DNA of 64,000 nucleotides from Oscillospiraceae bacterium (GTDB lineage Bacteria > Bacillota > Clostridia > Monoglobales > Monoglobaceae), in NCBI GenBank assembly GCA_015068605.1, contig SVKF01000003.1, positions 62,001 through 126,000 on the forward strand, given 5' to 3'. A program made the position numbers and the translations under genes. Under the pieces are notes generated by a model that was not told where the DNA came from, did no database searches, and was given only the letters and a program-made list of their open reading frames with translations. Positions 9,282 to 54,162 of the stretch are shown one piece after another (position 1 is the stretch's first letter; every line of letters begins with the position of its first letter).

Positions 9282-9310
9282 TTGATTTAATAATCCAATA
9301 GTGGTATAAT
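9282..9310 (+). promoter_or_regulatory. Promoter of structured RNA copy R1
   Basis: TTGATT-17-TATAAT; predicted +1 coincides with closing helix at 9317. Confidence 0.6.
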
Positions 9311-9316
9311 ATATTC

Positions 9317-9537
9317 ACCACATACTATAATTTTAATAATAGATTTTAGATATTTTTATGAATATCTATTTTTGCTATCCTTTTGGGGTATCATAAAACA
9401 AATTTGTGTTTGTTAAAAACGCAGGCTGTGATATGGTATTTGTTTTGTGATATTCATATTTGGTTATAGTGTGTGGTAACATTGAAATCGAGCCGCGTTT
9501 TTATGCGTGGCAAGACTTCTGTTGCCACGCATTTTTT
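9317..9537 (+). ncRNA. Structured RNA family copy R1 (closing helix, inner helix, pseudoknot, terminator)
   Basis: 9317-9330 pairs 9464-9477 (14 bp); 9390-9403 pairs 9438-9451 (14 bp); apical 9414-9426 pairs 9492-9503; terminator 9504-9537. Confidence 0.65.
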
Positions 9538-9611: not shown

Positions 9612-10112
9612 ATGAAAAAAATTATTACAACTATTTTGTTAGGAGTTTTATGTTTATCGTTGTGTGCATGTAACACAAAAAATATCGTCTCTAACACTAT
9701 GGAAGATGTAACCAACAAAACATTTTCATTGGGAGAAAAAGCAGAAATAGACGATGTTGAGGTGACCATGGTTGATGTTTATGAAAGCACAGGTGAGGCG
9801 TTTTCAAAGCCTGCAGACGGAAATGTATATGTGATTTGCGAATTCAATATCGAGAATAATTCAAGCAAAGATTTGACTGTATCGTCCATGCTTAGTTTTG
9901 AAGCATATTGCGATGATTCTTCCTGTAATTTAAGTATTTCGGCAATGGCATCAAATAGCGAAAAAAAGCAATTAGATGGAAAAATCGCTCCCGGGAAAAA
10001 GCTTTCCGGTATTATAGGCTATGAGGTTCCTGCTGATTGGAGTAATATGGAAATAAGATACACACCCGATCCTTTAAAAGATGACGAAGTTGTATTTGTA
10101 GCAACCAAATAA
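9612..10112 (+). CDS. Lipoprotein with DUF4352-like Ig-fold domain
   Basis: Lipobox LSLCAC; EIDDVEVTMVDVYES...YVICEFNIENNSSKDL pattern. Confidence 0.7.
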   Translation: MKKIITTILLGVLCLSLCACNTKNIVSNTMEDVTNKTFSLGEKAEIDDVEVTMVDVYESTGEAFSKPADGNVYVICEFNIENNSSKDLTVSSMLSFEAYCDDSSCNLSISAMASNSEKKQLDGKIAPGKKLSGIIGYEVPADWSNMEIRYTPDPLKDDEVVFVATK

Positions 10113-28857: not shown

Positions 28858-29040
28858 AGTCGCCTTCTCCTCGAGGGGAAGGGGAACCGCTTGCGGTGGA
28901 TGAGGTGGTGCAGTAAAATGCAAGATAATTCAACAGTTACATCTGTATTTTACACCTCATCAGTCTCACTGCATACCCAGCTTCCCCTCAAGGGGAAGCC
29001 ATAAGGAGAGGTCGTAAGAGGAAGCCCTCAAGGGGAAGCC
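28858..29040. repeat. MITE/REP-like intergenic repeat
   Basis: Repeated CTTCCCCTCAAGGGGAAGCC blocks; inverted GATGAGGTG (28899-28907) / CACCTCATC (28953-28961). Confidence 0.6.
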
Positions 29041-29053
29041 TGAAAATAGTAAC

Positions 29054-29088
29054 CCATTTATGCGCTGACTTTGGTTGGCGCATTTTTT
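29054..29088 (+). ncRNA. Truncated 3' end (terminator only) of a structured RNA family unit, R0
   Basis: TTATGCGCTGACTTTGGTTGGCGCATTTTTTATTTTCGGG identical to the R3 terminator; left side abuts the repeat at 28858-29040. Confidence 0.55.
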
Positions 29089-29120
29089 ATTTTCGGGTGG
29101 GTATTTATTTTAAAAAACTA

Positions 29121-29149
29121 TTGATAAATCATAAGGTTTGTGTTATAAT
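29121..29149 (+). promoter_or_regulatory. Promoter of structured RNA copy R2
   Basis: TTGATA-17-TATAAT; the same 29-bp sequence precedes R3. Confidence 0.65.
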
Positions 29150-29154
29150 AGAAA

Positions 29155-29356
29155 ATGCCAAATGAATCAAATTTAATATATGAGGGTATTTGTAAGGGGA
29201 TAATTGTATCTTTTTTTAGGAATAACTACACCAAGGAATTTGATAAAAACGCAAATTCTAACGGTGTGGTTGTGATAAATATCCTCACGTTTGATTTGTT
29301 TGGCGACAATTGGAGTTTGCGTTTTTTATGCGTCGGCTTCGGTTGGCGCATTTTTT
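29155..29356 (+). ncRNA. Structured RNA family copy R2
   Basis: 29157-29171/29290-29304 (15 bp), 29182-29193/29275-29286 (12 bp), 29222-29232/29263-29273 (11 bp), pseudoknot 29245-29258/29313-29326, terminator 29328-29356. Confidence 0.7.
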
Positions 29357-29388
29357 AATTTTCGGGTGGGTATTTATTTTAAAAACTA

Positions 29389-29417
29389 TTGATAAATCAT
29401 AAGGTTTGTGTTATAAT
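29389..29417 (+). promoter_or_regulatory. Promoter of structured RNA copy R3
   Basis: TTGATA-17-TATAAT. Confidence 0.65.
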
Positions 29418-29422
29418 AGAAA

Positions 29423-29621
29423 ATGCCAAACGAAGTTAATAATATAAAGAGGAATATTTTGTAAGGAATATTTTTGTTATTTGAGTACAAATTTACAGTT
29501 AAAGAATTTGATAAAAATGCAAATTCCAAGGCTGTAGATTTGGATATTCCATTATTAGCTTTGTTTGGCGACAATCGGAGTTTGCGTTTTTTATGCGCTG
29601 ACTTTGGTTGGCGCATTTTTT
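29423..29621 (+). ncRNA. Structured RNA family copy R3 (tandem with R2)
   Basis: 29425-29443/29551-29569 (19 bp), 29451-29459/29542-29550, 29488-29498/29532-29542, pseudoknot 29513-29526/29578-29591, terminator 29593-29621. Confidence 0.7.
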
Positions 29622-29639
29622 ATTTTCGGGAGGATTTTG

Positions 29640-29936
29640 ATGAGGAAAATAGTTGCTTTTTTGATGTTAATTTTTTTATTGACGGGATGTTCACCAAAGG
29701 AAGCGGAAAAAACATCGGTAGAAGATTACTCTGATGTATGGGAAGCTGAAGAGGATGAAAGTGAAGAAGTTGAAGATGTTGAAGAAAACCAATATGTCGG
29801 GTCAATAAAATCCAATATATATCATATTCCTAATTGCAGCTGGGTTAAAAACATAAAAAAAGAGAATGAAATCCGGTTTGACTCCAAAGAGGAAGCAACA
29901 TCAAGAGGATACCGTGGATGTTATACCTGTATGTAA
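29640..29936 (+). CDS. Small lipoprotein with acidic linker and Ada-like zinc-binding Cys motif
   Basis: ATG at 29640 with GGGAGGA RBS; lipobox LLTGCS; YHIPNCSWVKNI...SRGYRGCYTCM. Confidence 0.75.
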   Translation: MRKIVAFLMLIFLLTGCSPKEAEKTSVEDYSDVWEAEEDESEEVEDVEENQYVGSIKSNIYHIPNCSWVKNIKKENEIRFDSKEEATSRGYRGCYTCM

Positions 29937-39029: not shown

Positions 39030-39037
39030 AATTTAAA

Positions 39038-39148
39038 ACTTCAGGGATTGGTGAAATTCCATACCGGTGGTAAAGCCCACGAGCCTTATTAAAGGTTGAT
39101 TTGGTGAAATTCCAAAGCCGACGGTATAGTCCGGATGAAAGAAGAAAG
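39038..39148 (+). promoter_or_regulatory. FMN riboswitch (RFN element)
   Basis: GGTGAAATTCCATACCGGTGGTAAAGCCCACGAGC...TTGGTGAAATTCCAAAGCCGACGGTATAGTCCGGATGAAAGAAG. Confidence 0.95.
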
Positions 39149-39159
39149 CAGATTTTCTG

Positions 39160-39747: not shown

Positions 39748-39776
39748 TTTACATTTTTGGGAAAATATGATATAAT
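39748..39776 (+). promoter_or_regulatory. Promoter of structured RNA copy R4
   Basis: TTTACA-17-TATAAT. Confidence 0.65.
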
Positions 39777-39782
39777 GACAAT

Positions 39783-39921
39783 GCGAAACAATTAAAAAAG
39801 CACACCGGTGTTTTTTGCTTTTAGGCAAAAACGCACGTTTATTTTCTATGCCTGTGTGCTGATAATAAAATTGTTTCGCAGCAAGTGCGTTTTTCGGGCG
39901 CAGCTTGTCTGCGCTTTTTTT
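39783..39921 (+). ncRNA. Structured RNA family copy R4 (compact form)
   Basis: GCGAAACAATT (39783-39793)/AATTGTTTCGC (39869-39879); AGCACAC (39799-39805)/GTGTGCT (39854-39860); pseudoknot AAAAACGCAC (39827-39836)/GTGCGTTTTT (39885-39894); terminator GCGCAG-cttgt-CTGCGC-T7. Confidence 0.65.
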
Positions 39922-39973
39922 AGTTAAACGCACTTAAACGCCAATCGTCGCGAAACAAAGCTGGCATAACAAA

Positions 39974-53672: not shown

Positions 53673-54044
53673 GTTGCCCAAATCTTATTTTATTTTGACA
53701 AGGTTTTAGTGGTGGAGTGGAAGTTAAACTTGAAAAAAGTAAAAAAATAATATTTCCCAAAAACAAACAAAGTTCATTTTTGGGAAATAGAAATCGGGTA
53801 ACTATGCTTATTGCGGAAATTATCAAAAAAATTTATTTTTTCTTAAAATTGACTTTTGGTTGAAATCTCAACCAAAACATTAAATTGAGTATATTTTCCC
53901 TGAAAAAAACTTTTTTTCTGGTTATTGACATACGTAAAAAAATCAATTATAATAGGTTATGTAATAAAGATTGCTTATGCAATCCGGCACAAATCTTATG
54001 GTAAAAATATAAGGTTGGTGGTCGAATGGTTAAAATTAAATAAA

Positions 54045-54132
54045 AACGGGAGCTTGTATTACAGGCTGAGAGGAAGGTGTGACCTTCGACCGAGAACCTG
54101 ATTTGGATAATGCCAACGTAGGGATGCCGAAA
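54045..54132 (+). promoter_or_regulatory. TPP riboswitch (THI-box)
   Basis: GGCTGAGAGGAAGGTGTGACCTTCGACCGAGAACCTGATTTGGATAATGCCAACGTAGGGA. Confidence 0.97.
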
Positions 54133-54162
54133 CATTTTGTTTTAGGAAAACTTAAGTTTACT

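Follow-up and report, generated by a model that had tools for sequence, protein, structure and literature searches.

Tandem pseudoknotted RNAs with their own promoters and terminators as candidate transcription attenuators in gut and rumen Clostridia

Pseudoknotted aptamers occur in riboswitches such as SAM-II, and regulatory systems of the ANTAR/EutV type include decoy RNAs. The preQ1 riboswitch classes combine a pseudoknotted aptamer with a terminator/antiterminator platform (PMC11625349), an adenine/T-box arrangement is an earlier case of tandem elements with a promoter between them (PMC9481103), and attenuation of the ANTAR/EutV type works through dual small hairpins (PMC8934654, PMC5821096). 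Here, we analysed a stretch of 64,000 nt of bacterial DNA (the window), in which two copies of one structured RNA, R2 (29157–29356) and R3 (29425–29621), follow each other on the plus strand, each with its own promoter and its own terminator. We consider it probable, at about 0.78, that R2 and R3 represent a family of cis-acting transcription attenuators and riboswitch candidates, built as portable promoter–leader–terminator cassettes.

Like the preQ1-type riboswitches, these RNAs are 5′ leaders in which a pseudoknot strand is shared with the putative platform and terminator and antiterminator exclude each other; unlike them, they have a much longer pseudoknot (10–14 bp) that closes outside P1, match no Rfam family, and also exist in a stand-alone form and in many copies per genome. 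Two complete putative switches upstream of one ORF recall the tandem riboswitches (PMC9481103), although here the copies are of the same class and each brings its own promoter and terminator. With the ANTAR/EutV systems the family would share attenuator leaders accompanied by separate RNAs that could answer to the same regulator, but the RNA fold is unrelated. Multicopy leaders and surface-protein targets are also features of the c-di-GMP-I riboswitch (RF01051), from which the present RNA differs by the lack of an Rfam match and by a distribution that does not follow GGDEF proteins. If our reading is correct, a regulatory RNA class that is widespread among uncultured Clostridia of gut and rumen (38 of the 224 sampled genera) has so far gone unnamed and controls surface proteins, lipoproteins and regulators in these bacteria; the occurrence of both leader and stand-alone forms would then join riboswitch and decoy biology, and the unusually clear covariation of the platform allows the switching mechanism to be tested directly.

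Anatomy of the array and of the RNA family

The R2 cassette opens with the promoter TTGATA-N17-TATAAT, which has an extended −10 element (TGTG; 29121–29149) and is followed by the start of P1 8 nt past the −10 end, a distance of 7–8 nt being usual among the copies. The 5′ strand of P1 (GCCAAATGAATCAAA, 29157–29171) pairs with 29290–29304, as supported by covariation, and encloses P2 (29181–29193 with 29275–29287), a P3 hairpin followed by a conserved U-run (29194–29217) and the inner helix P4 (29222–29232 with 29263–29273); P2 and P3 are based on folding, P3 additionally on conservation, and P4 on folding and a crossed control. Within P4 lies the P5 hairpin, GAATTTG-ATAAAAACG-CAAATTC (29236–29258), whose positions 29245–29258 constitute the pseudoknot strand B5. 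Its partner B3 (GAGTTTGCGTTTTT, 29313–29326) overlaps the antiterminator 5′ strand CAATTGGAGT (29307–29316, facing 29336–29345) and precedes the terminator, a ATGCGTCGGC-TTCG-GTTGGCGCAT hairpin with a T-run (29328–29356).

The R3 promoter (29389–29417) is identical to that of R2 over all 29 nt, as the first-pass annotation had noticed, and the promoter pattern found no chance match in 100 shuffles. In R3, the RNA up to the end of B3 spans 29425–29591, with P1 at 29425–29443/29551–29569, P4 at 29488–29498/29532–29542, the P5 hairpin at 29504–29526, the pseudoknot formed by B5 (29513–29526) and B3 (29578–29591), and the terminator with its T-run at 29593–29621. It is followed by an RBS (GGGAGG, 29628–29633) and an ORF on the same strand (29640–29936) encoding a predicted lipoprotein of 98 aa that has an Ada-type metal-binding domain. 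R2 itself, like several other copies, has no gene directly behind it, the R3 cassette coming next. Both copies score highly in the covariance model (R2, 132.6 bits, E 1.9e-25; R3, 125.4 bits, E 5.8e-24), being training members of it.

All helices that the annotation had quoted are present letter for letter, and the local GAATTTG/CAAATTC hairpin exists in R2 as well as in R3. Its statement that every helix carries compensatory changes holds, when R2 is compared with R3, for P1, P2 and P4; the pseudoknots of the two copies are a single C/T apart (G–C to G–U), and double changes there appear only among relatives. Likewise, R0, described as a truncated copy, retains a leftover terminator on the plus strand (hairpin and T-run, about 29060–29088, the hairpin having the letters of R3; repeat families D3/D4; BLAST remnant C13:91057–91092) and nothing beyond it. 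A palindromic repeat, CTTCCCCTCAAGGGGAAG, adjoins the array at 28864–29040; similar letters are found near the copies L007 and L183, and the repeat seems to be dispersed and to have no relation to the RNA.

Across the family, the elements are arranged in the order promoter, P1, three-way junction of P2, P3 and P4, P5, P1 3′ strand, linker, B3 and terminator, with U-runs flanking P3 in the junction, P5 capping P4 with a conserved RUAAAAAYGCA loop, and a linker reading ACWAUCG. Of the 122 copies that have a −10 box, 104 carry it 6–7 nt ahead of P1, and the −35/−10 spacing is 17 nt in 79/86 copies with a −35 box. P4 is kept at 9 bp or more in 117/123 copies, vs 70/608 crossed controls, in which the 5′ and 3′ flanks were taken from different copies, and the interior folds with a mean z of −5.8 (41 copies tested).

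The RNA thus far described has a conserved, covarying structured putative sensor domain. Ranking of column pairs by APC-corrected G (89 blocks, 99 columns), a score that includes sequence relatedness, placed all of the ten top pairs in P1, the terminator or the antiterminator; the antiterminator pair 58:92 (TA 36, AT 28, TG 20) ranked 6th of all column pairs. On the best tree, computed without the trait columns, each linked position changed at least 18–21 times, and the sign test is powerless because only 2–3 independent pairs fall on supported branches. Pair 47:58, which joins the P1 3′ strand to the linker, ranked 12th and is suggestive of an alternative hairpin in a strand-exchange chain P1 5′–P1 3′–linker–T3–T5 (T5 and T3 being the terminator strands), a pattern not separable from two sequence types on this tree.

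In the block alignment, the long-form pseudoknot is near-invariant because the search pattern fixed it, and we therefore tested it on 65 divergent copies found by the covariance model R1 (36 copies), which was given P1 and P5 as its only structure, with the pseudoknot left out. Beyond A5:U5, the own-pair score was 12.4, the crossed mean 9.3 and the highest of 200 crossings 9.98, with a mild bias favouring own pairs from taking the best-pairing A-run as the B5 window. The first reading was right in proposing an interleaved pseudoknot and two exclusive states.

The family appears to be new. No covariance-model match to any Rfam 15 family was found, known riboswitches, T-box, 6S, raiA and ROOL included: at E≤5, the array region gave sub-threshold, chance-level matches only; 20 homologous loci searched at E≤0.01 returned only unrelated RNase P, and the third copy in the window returned nothing at E≤0.1. 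We found no earlier description among the open-access papers searched. At Rfam gathering thresholds, the window contains only FMN, TPP and tRNAs, all located elsewhere than the array; the FMN riboswitch (39033–39150) lies upstream of a membrane-protein ORF, and the TPP riboswitch occupies 54036–54141.

Copies, distribution and downstream genes

The covariance model recovered copies in the window, in the source genome and in its relatives, in agreement with the first-pass view of a multicopy structured RNA family. Besides R2 and R3, the window holds two further copies. One is a leader form on the plus strand (9282–9532), with its promoter at 9282–9310, RNA at 9317–9502, a pseudoknot between B5 (9415–9427) and B3 (9490–9502), and a terminator at about 9503–9532, after which a lipoprotein ORF follows (9612–10112); the other is the short form discussed below. 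The source genome, 82.6% complete, contains about 18–20 copies (R1 gives 18 matches at E≤0.1, including one that runs antisense to a copy, and 14 at E≤1e-4), dispersed copies being visible already with R2 alone as the query.

By BLAST, 29 of 60 relatives have a match; with R1, matches were obtained in 33/38 genomes at family level and in 52/394 at the level of the class Clostridia, representing 38/224 genera. Outside this class, no genome matched in a 400-genome sample of the phylum (strict filters, bias to complete genomes). A search for the 3′ core with a degenerate pattern identified at least 118 stretches from named genomes, almost exclusively MAGs of gut or rumen Clostridia, with Pumilibacter intestinalis (strain CLA-AA-M10; L121, one copy) as the one cultured species among the stretches listed; because the pattern demands GGAG and the B3 strand, the copy set derived from it is biased to the long form. 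Plasmids gave no match and phages one partial 3′ match, in an unannotated record (MT835503.1:468-536). A viral contig from IMG/VR (L161) has one full copy, and judged by these sequences, phages carry the RNA occasionally.

In 76/114 copies, the terminator is followed within 60 nt by an RBS and gene start, mostly at 15–35 nt (median about 22), vs 9.2% for random positions and 5/122 on the divergent side; a gene was counted when a start codon had an RBS and the ORF reached 40 codons, shorter ORFs being accepted where a contig end truncated them. Of the other copies, many are followed by a second tandem copy or by a gene that starts at a somewhat greater distance. As the intervening stretch is too short for a second promoter, the gene must be read through the terminator, and with transcription set to start at P1 and the terminator lying 15–35 nt before the RBS and start codon, the element would act as an attenuator of the downstream gene. 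By position, that is, by gene placement and by the promoter at P1, the copies are 5′ leaders. The annotation had taken separate promoters and terminators as an argument against a riboswitch; for R2, R3 and most copies this is mistaken, given the distance from terminator to RBS or start codon and the matching antiterminator. R2 and R3 stand as two complete cassettes ahead of the one ORF at 29640, and more tandem arrays exist in relatives (e.g. L207, L236 and L218).

The 118 downstream proteins examined include 21 BspA-type LRR proteins, six AbrB-type proteins and two acyl-CoA ligases, together with zinc ribbons, dockerins, Cu-amine-oxidase N domains, SHOCT and numerous uncharacterized lipoproteins. 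A small protein with the pattern M.DYKKLY...LFN..TD.I recurs behind L015, L023, L101, L147, L225, L227, L231, L233 and L235. Such a diverse spectrum gives no pointer to one metabolite and suggests a global signal.

Exclusive pairings and the proposed mechanism

Three mutually exclusive pairings can be drawn for the 3′ part of the RNA: the B3:B5 pseudoknot, an antiterminator made by the linker and B3 with the loop and 3′ stem of the terminator, and the T5:T3 terminator. When the segment from the linker to the T-run was folded unconstrained, the MFE structure was the antiterminator in 74/107 copies and, after shuffling of the linker, in 1/107. Only this unconstrained fold counts as evidence, because the energy of the forced antiterminator is little different with a shuffled linker (−17.6). 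The energies, estimated at −15.8 for the terminator, −18.1 for the alternative fold and −13.2 kcal/mol for the pseudoknot duplex, suggest that the three are balanced. Sequence and folding thus describe an expression platform with mutually exclusive structures, from which we infer the following mechanism.

A σA-type promoter would start the transcript at P1, and the RNA would fold into P1 around the P2/P3/P4 junction and its U-runs, with the P5 hairpin as a cap. As it emerges, the 3′ strand B3 would face two possible partners. If it pairs with B5 of the P5 hairpin, a long pseudoknot would form, in which a junction U-run may brace the A5:U5 end as a U–A–U triple helix; the terminator could then fold and the gene would be off. 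If B3 and the linker instead engage the terminator loop and stem, the resulting antiterminator would let the polymerase read through, and the gene would be on. A signal, be it a metabolite or a protein, would shift the balance by stabilizing or opening the pseudoknot. The lipoprotein gene at 29640 would be under R3, with R2 as a second cassette upstream in tandem.

The stand-alone form and competing explanations

The fourth copy in the window (39748–39921, plus strand) belongs to a short form, also seen at L169, L170, L171, L172, L174, L176 and L177, that recurs in the source genome and in relatives. It comprises a promoter (39748–39776), an RNA (39783–39894) and a terminator (39898–39921), with a pseudoknot between B5 (AAAAACGCAC, 39827–39836) and B3 (GTGCGTTTTT, 39885–39894). 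The form is characterized by an AAAAAYGCAC:GTGCGTTTTT pseudoknot and a plain terminator, and has neither the GGAG linker nor a same-strand gene after it; a role in trans or as a decoy is possible for it.

That leader and stand-alone forms of the same fold coexist in one genome, and that the target genes are diverse, would fit attenuation by an RNA-binding protein instead of a small molecule; the stand-alone copies would then titrate this protein. This sub-case overlaps the cis-acting attenuator reading and is offered tentatively, with a partner protein that is hypothetical. Equally speculative is the idea that one sensor fold might have two uses in the same cell, as cis leaders for many accessory genes and as gene-free RNAs sensing, buffering or titrating the same signal or protein, which would amount to an RNA-centred regulon of portable cassettes.

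A family consisting wholly of discrete 200-nt trans-acting or decoy RNAs, which bind a protein or other RNAs and leave the neighbouring gene unaffected, is improbable. Every copy does have its own promoter and terminator, and the gene-free short form, which keeps the pseudoknot and lacks the GGAG linker, is repeated in the source genome and in relatives; yet in most copies a gene follows so closely that another promoter would not fit in between, and neither this placement nor the matching antiterminator would be expected of a purely trans-acting RNA. The first-pass preference for trans-acting or decoy RNAs does not fit R3 and most long-form copies, which lead genes, and would be compatible, by anatomy, with the stand-alone form.

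Passive spread of a repetitive, MITE-like mobile element with a hairpin is less plausible still. The many dispersed copies, the tandem arrays, the decayed remnants (R0 and L005) and the inverted partial copy behind some stand-alone copies are what such an element might leave, but diverged copies keep their helices and pseudoknot through compensatory change, and promoter spacing and gene placement are kept as well.

A new c-di-GMP riboswitch class is hardly credible even though surface proteins, dockerins and Cu-amine-oxidase N-domains are frequent among the targets, which resemble known c-di-GMP regulons, because within a comparison limited by incomplete genomes the RNA does not follow the GGDEF proteins: the source genome (14 matches, 82.6% complete) and G029 (13 matches, 94% complete) carry copies and show no GGDEF hit, and G021 has 14 GGDEF domains and no RNA match (a search with RF01786, which found no match anywhere, controls included, is uninformative).

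Two minor observations concern the surroundings of stand-alone copies. Past the terminator of the window copy (39926–39961) and of L171, L174 and L176, the P1 3′ strand, linker and B3 recur as an inverted partial copy (e.g. AAACGCAC..CGTCGCGAAACAAA); as this exceeds z 4 in only 5 of the 24 copies lacking a following gene, we rejected it as a general trait of the stand-alone form and regard it as a lineage feature. At L171/L175 (G000:C25:52911-53320), one leader copy and one stand-alone copy are arranged back to back, in divergent orientation and about 160 nt apart.
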